From NCBI GenBank assembly GCA_037043015.1, contig CM073331.1, positions 4,361,501-4,425,500 on the forward strand: a stretch of 64,000 bases of DNA, in the 5' to 3' direction. Of this stretch, positions 3,891-49,200 are shown in pieces. Under the pieces are notes generated by a model that saw only the letters and a program-made list of their open reading frames with translations, did no database searches and was not told where the DNA came from. The position numbers and the translations under genes are program-made. The stretch comes from Bryum argenteum. Lineage: Eukaryota; Streptophyta; Bryopsida; Bryales; Bryaceae. The stretch's first letter is position 1. Each line of letters begins with the position of its first letter.

Positions 3891-5620
3891 ATGGCGAACC
3901 GTCAGAGAATGGATGCTAGTGGAGTAGACTTCGTGCTTTTGTGCTCAAGATGGAGGAAGCTGTAAAAAGGGGAAAGTTATCGAATGCTAGACAATGCAAA
4001 TCTCTGACAACGAAGCTATCAGACTCATGATTGCATGGATTCGATCGGGAGGTTGTGGATTGAGTCTTGAGTTGTGGCCCGAGATACAAACCAGCCCTTG
4101 CACCACTTCTGTTGGCGTTGTATCGAAATGATGGCAAAGGCTGAAGTACTTGTGAAGAAATGTGGAGAGGAGGACCGGCGTATCGCAGCAGTCTTGTAAT
4201 GCGATGTCATTTCTCTACATCGTGGATTCTATATACACTTGGAGGATACTATTTATTGAGTGTGCGAAGAAATTGTCAGCCGCTATCCCTTCGATACCGA
4301 TGTTACGGGGGCTCTCGGAGCTTGAGAAGATGCTTGAAGTTCTTGCAAGCGAGCGGAAGAATAGGAGTATTTGGATATTTGGATTCTCCTTACCAGATCA
4401 TTATCTTTGAAGCAGTAGCAGCATCTTGCTCGATGCGTGTTGAAGTGGAGGGTGAGAGTGGAAGATAGAGAATGAACCGGGACGTGGGGATGTCAAGTTT
4501 TCTTGGAGCTGGATCGAGTGTAAGTGGCGATTGAAGACAAATTGGTTGGGTGTGCCTTGTGCAAAGAAAGAGTTCTATGTGGAGATATCTGAGGCCATGA
4601 TCTTAAAGCAAGTGGGAATCATGACATGGATGGTCCACTCTTGTAATGTGAGGATCATATGTTATAGAAATGATGAGAAAGGAGAACGGTTCATTGCTAT
4701 CGAGGTGATGGAGGAAAGCGTGTATAATGTGATCAAGGAAAAAAAAGGTGTGCACTTTTCAATGGTTCATTGCTATGGAGTTGATGGAGAAAAGCGTGTG
4801 CAGTTTTCAATTGACTTAGCTCTCGACGTCATAAGCCGAATAGCAAGCGGAGTAAGGTGTTTGCATGTTTGTGGTGTTGCACATAGAGATGTTAAGCCGA
4901 ATAGCAAGTGGAGTAAGGTATTTGTATGTTTGTAGTGTTGCACATAGAGATCTTAAACCGCACAACATTGTTGTGAAAATGTTGAGATCTCCGTATCATG
5001 AGGAATATTATTGTGCGACAAGGAATATTATTGTGCGACGAGGAATAATATTATTGTGCGATGAGGAATATTATTGTGCGATGTTGGTGGATTTAAGAAC
5101 ATGCAAAAGTGAATTGGAAGCCTCAAAATCCAATACAATATCATATCCAGAAATTACAACAAGGTATACAGGTTCTAGAAGTTCATTTAAGTGCACAACT
5201 AGAAAGTTCGGGGAAGGTGAATTGGTTGAAAGCGAATGCAGATAGATAGATACTCCGGTCGCTTTCAAAGGGGCCGGCGTGAATGAAGTGTTTGTTCGTA
5301 ATGCTAATATCCCGATGGCCACCGGACAAGGGGAAATTGGAACAATACTACTTCCTCCTCTCGAGGGTGGACACTATGACTATGCTAGTTTCTAGTCTAT
5401 AAAAGCGAATGCACATAGCTTTGCCATGACTTGTGCACACATTTTAACACTAGGAAAACCATATGAGGAGTTGAAGTCTTTGAGAGTATTACATGCACAG
5501 ATGTTGGAAGGACGAAGACCTGTTTTTCCAATAGAATGCCTAGAGGGGTTGGTTGACCTTGTGGATGAATGTTGTAGTTGCACGGTGACAAACACTAATA
5601 AAAAATGGCACTATAAGTGA
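3891..5620 (+). pseudogene. Decayed serine/threonine/tyrosine-kinase-like gene with N-terminal helical domain
   Basis: Pieces in shifting frames give a kinase with an N-terminal helical region. The start ATG is probably 3891; blocks such as MEEAVKRGKLSNARQC and AEVLVKKCGEEDRR follow from 3950 to 4180. The kinase part begins near 4590. It includes a catalytic-loop HRDLKPHN (about 4945-4970), remnants of the activation segment (TCKSELEASKSNTISYPE), and the C-lobe block SFAMTCAHILTLGKPYEELK (5416-5475). Damage includes in-frame stops from about 4020, several frame changes and a 60-bp internal tandem duplication around the HRD loop (about 4837-4960). Four copies of a GGAATATTATTGTGCGA unit sit at 4999-5085, and a SINE lies at 5241-5401. 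The architecture recalls kinase families expanded in mosses, and the N-terminal part may be of the RPW8/MLKL (HeLo-like) type. That last assignment is inference. Confidence 0.75.
5241..5401 (-). mobile_element. 5'-truncated SINE copy inside kinase pseudogene
   Basis: This is a 161-bp insertion flanked by a perfect 12-bp direct repeat, AAAGCGAATGCA (5229-5240 and 5402-5413). Its 3' end on the minus strand is a short (TATC)n tail. Removing it restores a readable kinase segment across the junction (codons for NWLKANAHSFAMT), so the empty site is known exactly. The body matches the copies at 24876-24991 and 48826-49200. Confidence 0.9.
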
Positions 5621-24603: not shown

Positions 24604-24875
24604 TATTTCTTACTGAAGATTTGTTGTGTATTTTGTGGCAGATTGAGTATGAAGAAGAGCGGGAAATGCAAACATCTGATTTTCAATTTCTTACCACGAT
24701 TTTGTAAAAAAACATTTTTGTTAGATCATGAGATAAATTGAAAGGAGAAATTTGTTGCATGGAGCAAAGTTGTGTGCAAATGACGTGACATTCCTCTGTT
24801 GAGTAGTAGAGCCTGTTATTATTGGGTTGTTCAAATATTGATGGTAGGGTTTCCAAGAAAGAACTCTATCTCCTA

Positions 24876-24991
24876 GATAGATGATAGATAGATAGATAAA
24901 AACTCCAGTCCTTTTTAAGGGGCCGGCGTGAATGAAGTGTCCGTTTGTAATGCTAATATCCCGATGGCCACCGGACAAGGGGAACTTGAAC
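24876..24991 (-). mobile_element. 5'-truncated SINE copy with 14-bp target duplication
   Basis: This 116-bp insertion is bounded by perfect AACTCTATCTCCTA repeats (24862-24875 and 24992-25005). The 3' end on the minus strand is a (CTAT)n/(GATA)n tail. The body matches the 5241-5401 copy (GGGGCCGGCGTGAATGAAGT, CCCGATGGCCACCGGACAAG) but is truncated further at its 5' end, as expected of target-primed reverse transcription. Confidence 0.92.
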
Positions 24992-25196
24992 AACTCTATC
25001 TCCTACTATATCCCTAAAGATCCTTGATTCAAAATTTCTTAAATTACAGAAAATGACCTTCGCTTACTTCAAGCCAAAAAAATCTCTATCTAAGTATCAA
25101 TTAGATAATCCAACCGTAGATTCCTAAATTGAAGTTGCCTTGTCACTTGCACGTGTAATTTGAACCGTTGATTCTTTCCATTTCTGAGATGATAAT

Positions 25197-36353: not shown

Positions 36354-36426
36354 GCCGTCCTAGCTCAGTTGGTAGAGCGCAAGGCTCTTAACCTTGTGGT
36401 CCAGGGTTCGAGCCCCTGGGGTGGCG
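36354..36426 (+). tRNA. tRNA-Lys (CTT), 73 nt, intronless
   Basis: The acceptor arm GCCGTCC pairs with GGGTGGC, with discriminator G at 36426. The D arm is GCTCAGTTGGTAGAGC, the anticodon stem-loop CAAGG CTCTTAA CCTTG gives anticodon CTT, and the T arm is CAGGG TTCGAGC CCCTG. The A-box and B-box promoters are intact. A TTTT terminator follows at 36432-36435. CCA is not encoded. It lies 411 bp downstream of PRMT1 and is transcribed independently by RNA polymerase III. Confidence 0.97.
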
Positions 36427-36734
36427 ACCACCTTTTACATTCGTCCATTTTTTAACCGCCTATTTATAGACATACGAATTTGGTAAGTGCCATCCCTTCA
36501 TCAATATTTGAAGGGTTCAGAACTAAAATATGACTTTCCTGATTCCCTTCGTTGAGATGCATTCAAAAACATAGATGGTTTTTCCATTTAGTTTATGAAG
36601 AAGTGCAATGTCAATTCAAAGTTGATGTTAGGAACCTAGGGCCTTGCTATATGATTCATATACATATAAGCTTATGTTGTCAAATCATAATACCAATACT
36701 TTCAAGACAAACATTATCTTGTTTTGTACCTTGG

Positions 36735-36905
36735 GTCTAGTGTCTTATAAATAACTAGTATTTTTCCACCTGATGGGCTTTGAGGTACTCATACAATGAG
36801 GTCCAAGAACCTTCAATATAGAATTTGGTTCATGCCCGGACGCAGAACAGAACCCACAACCTCCTCATTGGGTGCCATGAGCCCCAACCAAGCCAGAGCT
36901 TCCCA
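36735..36905 (-). mobile_element. SINE copy, tRNA-like head plus middle, 3' end missing
   Basis: On the minus strand it reads TGGCTTGGTTGGGGCTCATG (A-box-like), then GAGGAGGTTGTGGGTTC (B-box-like), then GGTTCTTGGACCTCATTGTA and TACCTCAAAGCCC. This is the same order as the plus-strand copy at 43731-44016. Similarity stops around CACTAGACCC, before the tail region. Confidence 0.85.
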
Positions 36906-38076: not shown

Positions 38077-41000
38077 CTAATCTCGACCAGGAGGACTATG
38101 AAGAGCGTTCGAAATCTCAAGATGACCAGCATAAGTCCAGGGTCTGGAGCCATCCAATTTCTCCAAAACAGCTTCACCCTCGGGGATATTCCGACAAGAA
38201 GGTAGGAGGACTCCCTCGTGTGGGGAATTCGGAGTCTTGCGAAGAGTTGACGGACTGACAGCAGGGGAGAAAGCAGGGGAGATGGTTGGCGTGGCGTACG
38301 TGGTGGTGTATCGCTTGGAGTTCTCTGAACGAGCTCTTCGGGATGAGAAGCCTATTCTTCGCGACATTGATCCGTCTTGGGTTATGGAGCCTGCTGCTGG
38401 TGATCTCTTTACGAGGTCGTCGGCGTAGAGTACGTCGTCGATTCTTGCTATGATTGTGAACGCTAGACTTTCAAGGACACGAGAGTAGCTTTCGAGGATT
38501 GACTGGCCCACATCCTGCAATGGAAGAACTGATGGATGAGAACTCTAGGTTGAAGAAAAAGTTTGAGATAGTAACTCAATCAAGCAACCATGCGTGTAAA
38601 TCATCATGATGTAAAATCTATCATGCGATATCAACCATCTACTGCTAGCAAAGACTTCATGTTTCAACTCCAGCAAGGGTATCATGTTTTAGCTTCAGAG
38701 AGGTTTCATGTTTCAATTTTAGCGGAAATTTCATGTTTCAACTTCAGCAAAAATTTCATGTTTCAACTTTAGCAAAAATTTCATGTTTCAGCTTCCGCGA
38801 AGGTTTCCTGTTTCAACTCGAGCACAGATTTCATGTTCCAGCTTTAGCGAAGGTATCATGTGTCACCTTTAGCAAAAGGTTCATGTCTCAACTCTAGCAA
38901 AGGTTTCATCTCTCGTACAAATTTAATGTATTGACTCTGGTAGAGGATTCATGTATCAACCACTGATGGGAGGATATCAACCAAGGATATCAGAAAATCT
39001 AGCAGAATAGTATATTTGAAATATCCGGGAGGCGGGTAAGTATATCTCAAGTCTAGGTCGCTGTTAGATTCACGATATCTGGCACAACACCGGTATCAAC
39101 TCTAGCAAAGATTTAATATTTTAACTCTACGAAGGAGTCGAATTCCAAATTTAGGCTTGTTGTATATAAGATAGACAGGCTTACGGTACATATGATCGGT
39201 TTTACATGCATAATTACTACTGGTGTTTTTAAGCCTTGATGTGCCCTCAATTTGAGCAGTCTAAATGGATGAGGGATTAGTTTCGAAAATTATGCTGTTT
39301 GGTCAAGAGGGAGGTTAGAGATGGGCCATACCCTGTTAAACTGGATTTTGTTGGCGTCCAAAGCGGTTTGCGCCATGCCTGGGACTCGCTGTTTGAGGGA
39401 TACAAGAACACTCTCCGCTCTTTCAGCAAGAAGAGCCCTCCTCTCAGCGTCACCGCTAAAATGCTTCATTTTGGTCCAGGAAGTCTTGCGGTTGAGCTTG
39501 TTGTCGTACGGTGACATCTCAGCCATTGACTTGTGGTGCCCTCTTCGTCGCCACCCGACTACTGCAGCTTCCAACCGATTCGCCATCTCTAGAATAGTGT
39601 GTTCGTCGTTCACGTCCAAGTTCGATACAAGCCGATCCGGGGAGAAGTGGTCGGAGGCTATGGCTCGGTATAGTTCGTCACCGAGACAGGCTTTTCCATT
39701 CTGAAAGAATAAAGAAAAGTAAATCATCAAAATTGTCTATGAAGTACTGGAATTGCAAGCATGTATTATGTTAGATGGGTACCTTGGGTAGAGAGTCAAA
39801 GTAACATTCGGGGGCCTCCATTTCAAGCAAGACTTGCGCATTAATTGCCATGGCGGCTTTAAGGATTTGACTTGTTGCATCTCGTTGATGATGGAGGAAC
39901 TTTTTGCAGGATTCGGATAGACCATTAGCTGGTACGTTGAGCGTGGGAAGCCACCACTTCTCTTCTTGCCGTTGCATGGAATGCCGCGCACTGTTGTTGT
40001 CCTCGGAAACTGAAATGCCGTGGTCCACGTACCAAAATTCGGTTTCTTGATAGCTTTCCAGCGAATCCTGGAGAAGTGATAAACAGTGCCAGCATGAATT
40101 AATAATGATGCAGCCACAAGAATACTAAATAAAAGCCCCACTAACCTTAAAATGACAACTACAGAAATTCGAGGCATAGTTAGGTAATTCACCAAGCTCG
40201 ACTACTGAACTTAAGTCCTTCCATGTTATTCGCTCAAGACATCTCTAAGGGTCATGTTGAGAAGAAAGTCTTCCGTCGTCCATGAATTGTAAATAGAACA
40301 ATTCCGTCTATTTCGTTTACTGAGAGTACTCGACAGAAAGAGCGGAATACCGAGTCGACAGCCACAAAGAGCAGAATAGGGATGAAGGCAAGCGAAGCTT
40401 ACAAGCAACATATTGTCCAGTTTCCGAAGTGCCGGTAAGTTGATGTTAAGATCTGATCGAGGTCTGCTCACCATCACCTGCACCTCAATGTAAAGCACTC
40501 GTTAATAGAAGTCTAAATTGCATAGTCGAATTCAGCTACAGTGATCAATACTTTCGAAATTCAAAACAAAGTGCCCAACTACTGATAGGAGTATACCCAA
40601 TTCTCCACTTAAGGCAAATAGATGATTGGACTCAGTACCTCCATAGTGCTTCCGTCAGGATACCGTTGCCAAGATGGGACCAGCTCAACAATATGATCAC
40701 AAACTGACAGCATCCATTCCATCTCTCGCCTCCACATAGTTCGCCTCTTCATGGGCAGAGGTTCTAACCTCCACAACTCTCCAAAAACTGACGCTGTAAT
40801 TCAAATTCAAAACGTTAGCCACAATATTCTTACAATCAACCCTGCAAAAGTGAATTTTCAAATTTCTGACGGCATACCTGACAGATTCGTAATTGCATTC
40901 GATATGGCCAGAGCAGTGCAAACGCCTTTTCCTCCACCCGACATGTCTTCCCCAAGTAGCAACTTGGCAAACTTCTCTTTCATCATCTCCACCTCTGCAA

Positions 41001-41999: not shown

Positions 42000-43730
42000 G
42001 CTATCTGTGTACCACCTCTGACCCTTCCATCTTTCAACACACACGCTCTGCGCATTAATCCACGTCCAAGAAAAGCTTCATCTCTCGCTTCGGAAGCCAG
42101 AGCAAGAACGCAGACGAAAACGGCTTCACGATCCTCGAACTTCCCGCGTACAATACTCTCAAGCCGCCTTTACTATACTACTACCTTGCATTTTCGAACT
42201 TTGGTGTAGTCACCTCACGTCAGATATTGTCGAGGCACATTCTGTGTCAGTCAGAGAGCTTTCTTCCATTCGACGTCAATTTCAAAATACTCGCCACGGT
42301 TCAAATGATGACAATCCTGCAGTCCAGGAGCATTCACGGGAAGCGCTTTGAAGACGCACAGGTAGTGCCGGCGCTCGTCATCATCCTGTAACGGACCACA
42401 CGTGCGAGCTCACCTATCTATCAAGCTCCTCTACCAGCGGACTTTTCTCACAAGCTATGAAAAAACGTCCTTCCGCCACTACTATCTCTATTCAATATCG
42501 AGCTTCTTCTTCTCCCTATCAGCAGACTCTCCTCACAAGCAACGAAACGTTCTTCCGCCACTACTATCTCACTTCAATTCACTCACAACAGAGTACCAAT
42601 TTCCACTCTCTCTTTCTTTCTTCCAGTGTATTCCTCGAGTAATCTTTCCTCCCTCCTTCCGTCAACCAAACGCCTTCTATTCTCGCGACAAAAACGTTGA
42701 CGCCGTCACTTTCACTTGCAACTCGACTTCAGCAACTTCAAACTTCACGTCCACCGCTTTCTTCTCCACAGATACGTCGTAAGAAGTGTATCTATTCCGT
42801 AAAAACTAGCTACAAACCCCCTGGCTCCTCAAAAAACTCGTTCCACTTCCAGAAACGTCCGTTTTAAGCGCAATTTGGAGCAAATCTTGTAAAGAATCTC
42901 GCAGCTACTACGCGAAGCCTGCTCCGCATTAATCTGGCGCCTCCAGATTGCGTTGCACCGGGTCAGATCTCTGCATTGCAGTAGTGTGTTCTCTCTCGCA
43001 GACGAGGAGCCTTCCGCCACCCAATCCGTAGATTCCGACGTACATCTACGAGCTTGTCTGGATAGATCTACGGATTCGTATCTACGTTCCCGGTGTGGGC
43101 GACAGCTGGTCTGTCAATAGAGTGTTGGTAGATTTGAGAGATCTACGACTTGTTTGGATTTTTAGTAAACAAAAGTGCTGCCACCTTTCGTTTAATAGTG
43201 GATTTTGTGGTCTCAAGACAAAATAGCCACCGTATTTTCCTTCTTTGGGTTCCTGCTTTTTGGACATTTACTATTTTTTTAATTGGAAAGAATTCCATAT
43301 TTGATGTCACTAAATGATTTGGTGGAGTTGAGTGCCCCAAAACCGACCACTGAAACTGCTGGAACATGATGGGCAAAAGACAACATTCTCAAAGAAATTT
43401 TAAATGACCGGTGGTCATAGTGTATAGAATTAGGGGTAATATTGGTACTCTATTTACATTGTGCCTTCAAATGCCTTATCTTTTTCTTTTTTTTCTTTTT
43501 TTGATTTCAAAGAAATCATTCATTAAATCGATAAATTTAATAGAATTGTAGAATTTATCAAAAATTTAGACAATTTTATAAGTATTTTTGTCTTCGATGT
43601 TGGGAGCAATATTAAAATAAAAAGCAATCATGACTAGTATAGTTACTACTTGAAAAGTGTGTTATTTTCATCTCAGTACACTAGATTCCTGTCAAGCTTG
43701 ACATTTCACGTAGAAATACTACAGGCACCA
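42000..43730. other. RopGEF 5' flank and intergenic DNA
   Basis: It is CT-rich upstream sequence. An 86-bp tandem duplication occurs at about 42431-42580 (copies begin CTACCAGCGGACTTTTCTCA and CTATCAGCAGACTCTCCTCA). No gene is supported. Some minus-strand frames around 42829-43376 are open but unrecognised. Confidence 0.5.
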
Positions 43731-44016
43731 AGAGCCTTGGCTTGGTGATTAGGGGCTCATGGCCCTCCAATGAGGAGGTCATGGGTTCTACTATGTCGGC
43801 GCGTGCTCACCAACATAGCCCACCCAACTATGGTGGGGGGTTCTTGGACCTCATTGTATGGGTACCTCAAAGCCCTTTGGGAGGATACCATGTCAGGTAT
43901 CTGTAAGGCACTAGTGGCTAGGTAGGAACTAGCATAGTGTTCACCCCCGAGGGGGGTTAGTAATCCCGCCATTGGTGTGATGACCTCGGGACATATATCC
44001 AAGGATAGGTCGAACC
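43731..44016 (+). mobile_element. Long SINE copy, tRNA-like head to 3' region
   Basis: It starts GAGCCTTGGCTTGGTGATTA with an A-box-like TGGCTTGGTGATTAGG and a weak B-box (GGGTTCTACTATG). Family blocks follow in order: CCCACCCAACTATGGTGGGG, GGTTCTTGGACCTCATTGTA, TACCTCAAAGCCCTTTGGGA, GGAACTAGCATAGTGTTCAC, CCCGAGGGGGGTTAGTAATC. The 3' end near GGATAGGTCGAAC lacks a clean GATA tail. This copy shows that the head and the tailed 3' part belong to one element. Confidence 0.85.
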
Positions 44017-44867
44017 TCTAAATGGGTTGGAGTTTCTTTTCTTCTAGAAATACCAAAAAAGAGCTCGATGAAAATATTAGTGCCAATACCACACTCTTCC
44101 ACTCATTTATATAAGTGTGCCTAGTATATTTTATAACCAAATTTAAAACAACTTTCTTGAGGATTGATGTACGTTATAAACGACAATCAAATCCATTTAG
44201 TGTGCACACAATGTACATTTCATGGGTGCATGTTTATTGCTAAAGGAAGAAAACTCCTACTTGACAACGCCATACATTAAAAGGTGGTACCACCAAATTA
44301 GTATGGTGTGTCTACCACCATTTGATGTGCCAAGCCATTTTTGAGTAACCCTTTTTTGATAATGTTGCTTTCATGGACTACGGTAAGTAACTTAACCATT
44401 TTCTCTTCATTTGATAAGTTACACACTTTTTCGGACCAAAAAAACACATAATTTCTTCACCTATTTTTTTATCATATATTATTTGCTATACCAACTCTTC
44501 CTTGCATTGATAATATCATGGGGACAAGTACCAGGCACTTCAATTTATTGTAGGAACTTATTTTGACTGTTTTAAAGTTTTATTGCTCACGAGGTAGGCT
44601 TCAAATAAATTATTAAGAACACCAAGTAAGAACATCAAGTCTTTTTGAGGTTGGCGTGAGTAGAATGTTTTTTTGCTCTAGCTTTCATAATGTGTGCATA
44701 GTACATAACAACAGTGGTGTCATATTACTAACCCCTCTTGAGATGGACACTATAAACAAAACTAAACCAGAAACCAAAATATCTTGTATATAAATTGGCT
44801 TGATTTGTTTACTAGGATTCTTAGAAATGGTATTTGGTTTGATTGTTTGTCGCAACGTTTAGAGTTC
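44017..44867. other. AT-rich intergenic DNA with a diverged SINE 3' fragment
   Basis: No gene. About 44645-44760 (minus orientation) resembles the SINE 3' half: GTTGGCGTGAGTAGAATG near the tail side, and CTAACCCCTCTTGAGATGGACACTATAA near the middle. Confidence 0.55.
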
Positions 44868-48604: not shown

Positions 48605-48655
48605 ACTATAAGACATGGTATTCCCCTAAAGGGCTTTGAGGTATTATACACAACA
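48605..48655 (-). mobile_element. SINE middle-region fragment
   Basis: GACATGGTATTCCCCTAAAG and GGGCTTTGAGGTA are the complement of the SINE middle (TACCTCAAAGCCC ... ATACCATGTC) of the 43731-44016 copy. Confidence 0.6.
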
Positions 48656-48825
48656 CTAGTCCAAAATAGGCTCAATTAGACCATGCGAGTACACTGGGTT
48701 CTTAAGTTGGTACCATTAGGCATTCACTTCTAATCCATGAGTTCTACAGTAGCAGTTTCTTTTTTCCCCCTACAGTATAGACATCCTGTGTTAATAGCAC
48801 CTGCATTGAATGCGTCCTGAGGCGT

Positions 48826-49200
48826 GTATATAGATAGATAGATAGAAACTCGGGTCCCTTTCTAAGGGGCCGACATGAATGAAGTGTCCGTTCGTAATGC
48901 TAACATCCCCATGGCCACCGGACAAGGGAAAATTGGAACAATGCTACTTCCCCCTCTCGAGGGTGGACACTGTAACTATGCTAGTTTCTAGCCGCAGCCG
49001 TGTACACTTAGTACACGTTGCTATACTCAACACTCTGTCTCTACTAGAGGGTATAAAACCTGCTCTCTTGCGACCATATTTGTACTAATACAACAAGATC
49101 CAAGAACCCCCCAGCATAGTTGGGTAAGTTAGATTGTGGTAACTAGTGAGCACCACGCCGACATGAGGAATGAAACACACGACCTCCTCATACGAGTTTA
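48826..49200 (-). mobile_element. Near-complete SINE copy with (GATA)n tail
   Basis: Read from 49200 down: a B-box-like head region (GAGGAGGTCGTGTGTTTC); CCCAACTATGCTGGGGGGTT; GGATCTTGTTGTATTAGTAC; ACTAGCATAGTTACAGTGTC; CACCCTCGAGAGGGGGAAGT; CCGGTGGCCATGGGGATG; and GAACGGACACTTCATTCATG. It then ends in (CTAT)n at 48826-48845. It carries both the tRNA-side blocks of 43731-44016 and the tailed 3' end of the two truncated copies, so it defines an element of about 375 bp. Confidence 0.85.

Follow-up and report, generated by a model that had tools for sequence, protein, structure and literature searches.

Few SINE–LINE pairs have been documented in land plants. The tables of a 2013 review contain three such pairs, all from flowering plants and none of them TATC-tailed, and the tails given there for land-plant SINEs are A, T or TTG only (PMC3747384). 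In the same tables the L1 elements of flowering plants end in (A)n in 224 of 233 families and have no tail in the other 9, and the seven RTE families end in (TTG)n or (TTGATG)n (PMC3747384). The review also asks whether strict recognition of the 3′ end came first among plant LINEs (PMC3747384). According to it, ZmSINE2 and ZmSINE3 of maize share with LINE1-1_ZM a common 3′ end, a terminal hairpin and compensatory changes in its stem; the TS SINE of tobacco has a short-repeat tail and a LINE partner, RTE-1_STu, with a common 3′ end; and SINEX-2_CR of Chlamydomonas, also of the green lineage and paired with RandI, ends in a tetranucleotide repeat, (CTTT)n, the tail of the LINE being identified as well (PMC3747384). 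The pair described here is similar to each of them in these respects, whereas it differs from the maize pair, which has an L1-clade LINE and tails of (T)n or (A)n, by its (TATC)n tail and by a LINE with 2A-like, PCIF1-like and RNase H parts; from the TS SINE, the tail of which is (TTG)n and the partner of which is an RTE-clade element, again in a flowering plant; and from SINEX-2_CR and RandI, which belong to a green alga and have a different repeat and a different LINE (PMC3747384). Since none of the three tabulated land-plant pairs is TATC-tailed, the present pair differs from the known plant pairs as far as these sources go (PMC3747384). Among the papers listed in a literature search, none dealt with a moss or liverwort SINE or with a TATC-tailed plant SINE.

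The stretch of DNA analysed here (the window) is 64 kb long. Two 5′-truncated SINE copies with (GATA)n tails lie on its minus strand, one at 5241–5401 (reference 199–349, 94% identical to the full-length copy L017, with the tail at the left end of the plus strand) and one at 24876–24991 (reference about 243–348, 91% identical to L017). The first-pass annotation had described perfect direct repeats of 12 and 14 bp around them, and both are indeed present at either end: AAAGCGAATGCA at 5229–5240 and 5402–5413, and AACTCTATCTCCTA at 24862–24875 and 24992–25005. Its further statement that the two insertions share their 3′ body, are truncated to different extents and end in the tetranucleotide repeat, (TATC)n on the minus strand, was likewise borne out, the truncation points being reference positions 199 and 243 of 349. 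The 3′-terminal hairpin region (CCGG...CCGG) of the first copy, at 5255–5277 on the minus strand, matches the place of the LINE hairpin (see below); it was judged by eye, and the hairpin tests were run on other copies of the SINE.

Three further insertions had been assigned to the same GATA-tailed family, which proved right only in part. The longer relative at 48826–49200 (minus strand) has the tail and the 3′ part, together 168 nt, of the main family; its middle is divergent, its head begins at about reference 46, and a comparison of stretches on its two sides revealed no duplication of at least 6 bp. Beside it, at 48612–48664, lies a short further fragment of the SINE middle (reference 124–174, 77%). 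The copy placed at 43731–44016, for which we read 43724–44044 on the plus strand, shares the head of the family (reference 1–249, 82%) and is flanked by a 9-bp duplication, TAGAAATAC, at 43711–43719 and 44045–44053, but its 3′ half is different and a T/C-rich end, GGAGTTTCTTTTCTTC, stands in place of the GATA tail. Most of this 3′ half is also present in a second large repeat family (40 scored of 1131 candidates); the matches end near 44015 and do not extend into the final 29 nt of the copy. The head copy at 36735–36905, here 36723–36901 on the minus strand (reference 9–209), does contain a related head, but it is an old or diverged fragment, 67% identical in an alignment of 201 columns, and its two flanks have at best a 6-bp repeat in common. 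The insertions at 43731 and 36735 are thus related heads and not GATA-tailed members. The window also contains a real tRNA-Lys at 36354–36426, which was the only match of an Rfam scan of the 64 kb, and a PRONE domain (plant RopGEF) at 39290–39736.

The family was followed through the genome that holds the window (258.8 Mb in 25 contigs). The exact 20-mer of the SINE 3′ end, GGAGTTTCTATCTATCTATC, occurs 1083 times genome-wide, and its reversed form once. For closer analysis we took the places at the top of the list, 70 out of 71, which all lie on contigs C1 and C2; 6 of them repeated the flanks of others and were discarded, so that 64 copies remained. As L011 and L043 both carry the duplication TTTAGCATAAA, at least one same-insertion pair slipped through this flank filter. 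Target-site duplications with a score of at least 8 and abutting the insert, one mismatch being tolerated in long ones, were observed in 44 of the 64 copies, compared with 0.5% for randomly paired left and right flanks. They are 8–17 nt long, and 37 of the 44 measure 10–14 nt. Twenty-eight copies, those that begin no later than reference position 10, are full-length, and 25 of these have a duplication; the alignment begins at reference base 1 in 25 of the 28, starts at 1–3 having been set to 1. The other 36 copies are 5′-truncated, 7 of them down to the last 39 nt or fewer. The gradient of truncation and the duplications expected by the first-pass annotation are therefore found in these copies. 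It had also named the lack of duplications as an observation that would speak against a SINE; such a lack concerns 20 of the 64 copies, 17 of them truncated, in which no clear duplication was seen. Pairwise divergence among 25 of the 28 full-length copies has a median of 4.3% and ranges from 0 to 13.9%. The 64 copies were chosen by their tail and so cannot tell whether tail-less copies exist. With 349 nt plus tail, below the 700 bp that bound SINEs, and at least 1083 exact 3′ ends, these dispersed repeats have the size and copy number of such elements. They are a real SINE family, recently active, with a tetranucleotide tail, target-site duplications and graded 5′ truncation.

The full-length SINE has 349 nt ahead of the tail and starts with GGCACCACAAGCC. 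RNA polymerase III (Pol III) promoters of this kind are recognized by A- and B-box consensus motifs, and the tRNA-like box regions noted earlier were recovered in the full-length head as TGGCTTGGTGG (A box, reference 15) and GGTTCCATTCC (B box, reference 59), 44 nt apart and with one mismatch each. At this stringency only three A/B-box pairs occur on both strands of the 64-kb window, two of them within the real tRNA-Lys. The exact A-box string is missing from 2 of 14 SINE copies inspected. When the head was compared with the Rfam tRNA covariance model, it was not listed even at E ≤ 10, so the putative tRNA origin of the SINE rests on the boxes. As a sequence motif an internal Pol III promoter is present, from which transcription is predicted. 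At the other end of the element the hairpin is followed by GGAGTTTC and then by (TATC)n.

According to the first-pass annotation, the tail implied a partner LINE whose 3′ recognition sequence is unusual. A LINE that answers this prediction is present in the same genome: its 3′ end is related to that of the SINE, has a hairpin in the corresponding position and carries the TATC tail. When 150 of 175 candidates were scored in a search with PF14529 (APE-type endonuclease), at least 139 matches resulted, most of them spanning about 387 bp, in open frames of 124 to 2941 codons, some with stops; we take the matches of about 387 bp as one LINE family. The longest frame belongs to a copy on C10 (L110/L111, G000:C10:7245500-7257300), and its 3′ untranslated region includes a segment similar to the 3′ end of the SINE (E = 5e-8), after which comes TATCTATC. 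In a global alignment of the last 144 nt of the SINE with this region, 107 of 143 aligned columns are identical (about 75%). The score is 97; 500 shuffles of single bases reached no more than 30, and 500 that preserve dinucleotides no more than 32. Without the tail the score is 83, compared with a shuffle maximum of 29. With a similarity of about 75% and not 95%, the true mobilizer may be a relative of the LINE copies read. The LINE-related share is the last two-fifths of the SINE, about 144 nt, and its first 205 nt have no significant match in L110/L111 (best E = 3.4). Inclusion of the 3′ body in a larger autonomous element had been put forward earlier as grounds for rejecting the SINE; only these last ~144 nt are shared with the LINE, as is expected of a LINE–SINE pair.

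Six LINE 3′ ends were read, that of L110 itself and those of its five best matches among the 40 scored out of 685 candidates, and all six finish in GGAGTTCTTATC(TATC)n. Neither the poly(A) end of plant L1 elements nor the (TTG)n or (TTGATG)n of plant RTE elements is seen in these six ends. The 20-mer of the LINE 3′ end, GATTGGAGTTCTTATCTATC, occurs 199 times genome-wide and never in reversed form. A 3′ end shared with a LINE of the same genome is the mark of a stringent-type LINE–SINE pair, and by its sequence the present pair would be of that type. A query with a diverged 3′ end yielded at least 40 places, and no LINE frame was seen by eye in the three that were read (L009, L010 and L050). 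In the 3′ untranslated region of L113–L117, on the antisense strand and roughly 300–400 nt away from the 3′ terminus, a stretch similar to GTTCGAAC/GTTCGAATCC resembles, by eye, a tRNA T arm or B box.

The hairpins of the SINE and the LINE stand at the identical position, and their letters are mostly different while the pairing is kept. The arms read CCAATCTTC and GAAGATTGG in five of the six LINE ends, with one change in that of L117, and CCGGCCCCTT and AAGGGACCGG in the SINE. The test set comprised 25 of 46 distinct 26-mers, equal in length and layout, the other 21 being truncated or of another length. In these 25 rows 82.8% of the cells pair, compared with 79.4% in shuffles, and none of 500 shuffles was as high; changes on both sides were observed in 7 of the 10 pairs, a number reached by 3 of 500 shuffles. 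Shifting the partners by one column lowers both measures. Two LINE rows provide most of the both-side changes, and the number of pair types is not above that of the shuffles (146/500). The weak places are pair 5, which is non-standard in 20 of the 25 rows, columns 6 with 24 (in 7) and the innermost pair (in 6). Single-strand folding of four sequences gave z values of −3.7, −3.5, −2.3 and −3.75. Weak pairs included, these comparisons point to a conserved terminal hairpin that the RNA would form.

The open frame of 2941 codons in the C10 copy was compared with Pfam over 2389 codons, which revealed an endonuclease, a reverse transcriptase, a PCIF1_WW match (E = 6.7e-12, above the cut-off) and an RNase H. 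This PCIF1-like part is similar to PCIF1 of the PDB as well (E = 1e-4). Genome-wide it has at least 131 matches, counting its own (461 candidates, of which 131 were scored); the rest are 54–84% identical. We take NPPF to be the catalytic motif of PCIF1, and its letters are present in the aligned PDB sequence. At this place the four copies read, out of the 131 matches, have AHPHN, AHPHN, AHPYN and AHTHN; in none of them does the LINE domain retain the NPPF of an active PCIF1-type N6-adenine methyltransferase, which makes ordinary methyl transfer doubtful. The exact LINE 3′ 20-mer lies 1.9–2.1 kb downstream of 13 of the 63 PCIF1-bearing places on C1–C4 (control 0.11) and is absent at the other 50; this spacing indicates that the parts belong to one element in those 13 copies. 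In the PDB the LINE reverse transcriptase scores 117 bits against R2 and 71 bits against L1, which is a comparison with the PDB and not a placement in a clade. A search of IMG/VR, reaching close relatives only, gave no relative of it. Upstream of the long frame in L110/L111, and overlapping its start, there is a second open frame of at least 468 codons; it has no significant Pfam family and is possibly the ORF1 of the LINE.

APE-type LINEs are said to contain 2A-like peptides. In those reported by Odon et al. 2013 the 2A-like motif reportedly lies in the polyprotein, a likeness to the present LINE, and the passages of other papers that refer to them mention no PCIF1-like domain. The codon pattern for GDIExNPGP (2A-like) occurs 121 times genome-wide and not once reversed. 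An endonuclease match lies downstream on the same strand within 4 kb at 59 of 100 listed places (shifted control 0.09), and in 51 of these 59 the distance is 1015–1080 nt; the other 41 may be broken copies or may have endonuclease matches beyond those listed. The motif is presumed to be functional. Seven places carry two such motifs, and in five of them (C2:30585951/30586677, C3:18760950/18761676, C5:7223682/7224405, C5:14694870/14695597 and C7:469421/470143) the two are 722–727 nt apart, which suggests a three-part polyprotein in one LINE subfamily.

Other elements were met with in the course of these searches. L109 (C5:15757000), considered as a partner LINE, has no significant match to the SINE and was rejected; by eye its frame has helicase-like and endonuclease-like parts besides the PF14529 match, and it is perhaps of Helitron type. 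The route through PF00078 was given up, its at least 150 scored matches looking like Ty3/Gypsy by their span. Much of the Gypsy-like reverse transcriptase set, with nearly equal scores, lies on the largest contig, C1, which is perhaps a sex chromosome or a gene-poor one. At L008:2-715 there is a transposase fragment with Pfam DDE_Tnp_1_7, presumably of piggyBac type, which we assume to be unusual in land plants. The dynein domain AAA_8 has 28 genome matches in eight places, some with internal stops as expected of unspliced exons. To our knowledge, dynein heavy chains are absent from angiosperms and conifers. Taken with a genome of 259 Mb, the dynein matches point to a bryophyte or lycophyte as the host, probably a spore-bearing land plant.

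Two families abundant in one genome thus share a 3′ end and an identical tail, and the hairpin of both, with its compensatory changes, occupies the same position; the SINE has the duplications and truncation of a retrotransposed element. We are confident, short of certainty, that the copies belong to a recently active SINE family, transcribed by Pol III, as the A/B-box head implies, and mobilized in trans by the co-resident APE-type LINE. Pol III would transcribe the SINE from this head, and the resulting RNA would carry the 3′ ‘address label’ of the LINE, namely about 100 nt of conserved 3′ untranslated region, the terminal hairpin, GGAGTTYC and the TATC repeats. Recognizing this label, the LINE reverse transcriptase would begin target-primed reverse transcription on the TATC tail; staggered nicking would give rise to the duplications and incomplete cDNA synthesis to the graded 5′ truncation.

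There is a small chance that the SINE is instead moved by another LINE, be it a poly(A)-type, a plant RTE-type or an unseen one, and that its LINE-like 3′ end is a relic. A difference at a quarter of the positions between the two 3′ ends, and sequence examined for one LINE family only, would agree with this; yet identical or near-identical SINE copies retain the tail (in copies chosen by the tail pattern), and the LINE keeps the hairpin although most of its letters differ. The tails tabulated in the review for flowering plants, (A)n or none for L1 and (TTG)n or (TTGATG)n for RTE, speak against such a source as well (PMC3747384). A slighter chance remains for the repeats being, not SINEs, but internally deleted, non-autonomous LINE derivatives that kept the 3′ end and acquired a foreign 5′ part. 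Such derivatives would account for the LINE-related last ~144 nt and for the LINE-like truncation of 36 of the 64 copies, but not for the first 205 nt, which lack a significant match in L110 and L111 and bear A and B boxes at tRNA-like spacing, nor for the full-length copies, of which 25 out of 28 have alignments beginning at reference base 1, in keeping with a fixed Pol III start. A chance microsatellite beside unrelated repeats with coincidental direct repeats is refuted by the counts, for although GATA microsatellites are generally common, body end and tail stand together 1083 times with a control of 1, and duplications flank 44 of 64 copies against 0.5% by shuffling.

Returning to trans-mobilization by the TATC-tailed LINE, we may offer a tentative and rather less than even conjecture: the pair could represent a spore-plant LINE lineage outside L1 and plant RTE, with a hairpin-plus-TATC RNA label and a 2A-separated polyprotein in which the catalytically altered PCIF1 domain might have become a module that plays a structural part or binds RNA, for instance at the cap or at the 3′ label copied by the SINE. 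A pair labelled by a hairpin and TATC in what is probably a plant with flagellate sperm bears on the question of early strict 3′ recognition by plant LINEs.
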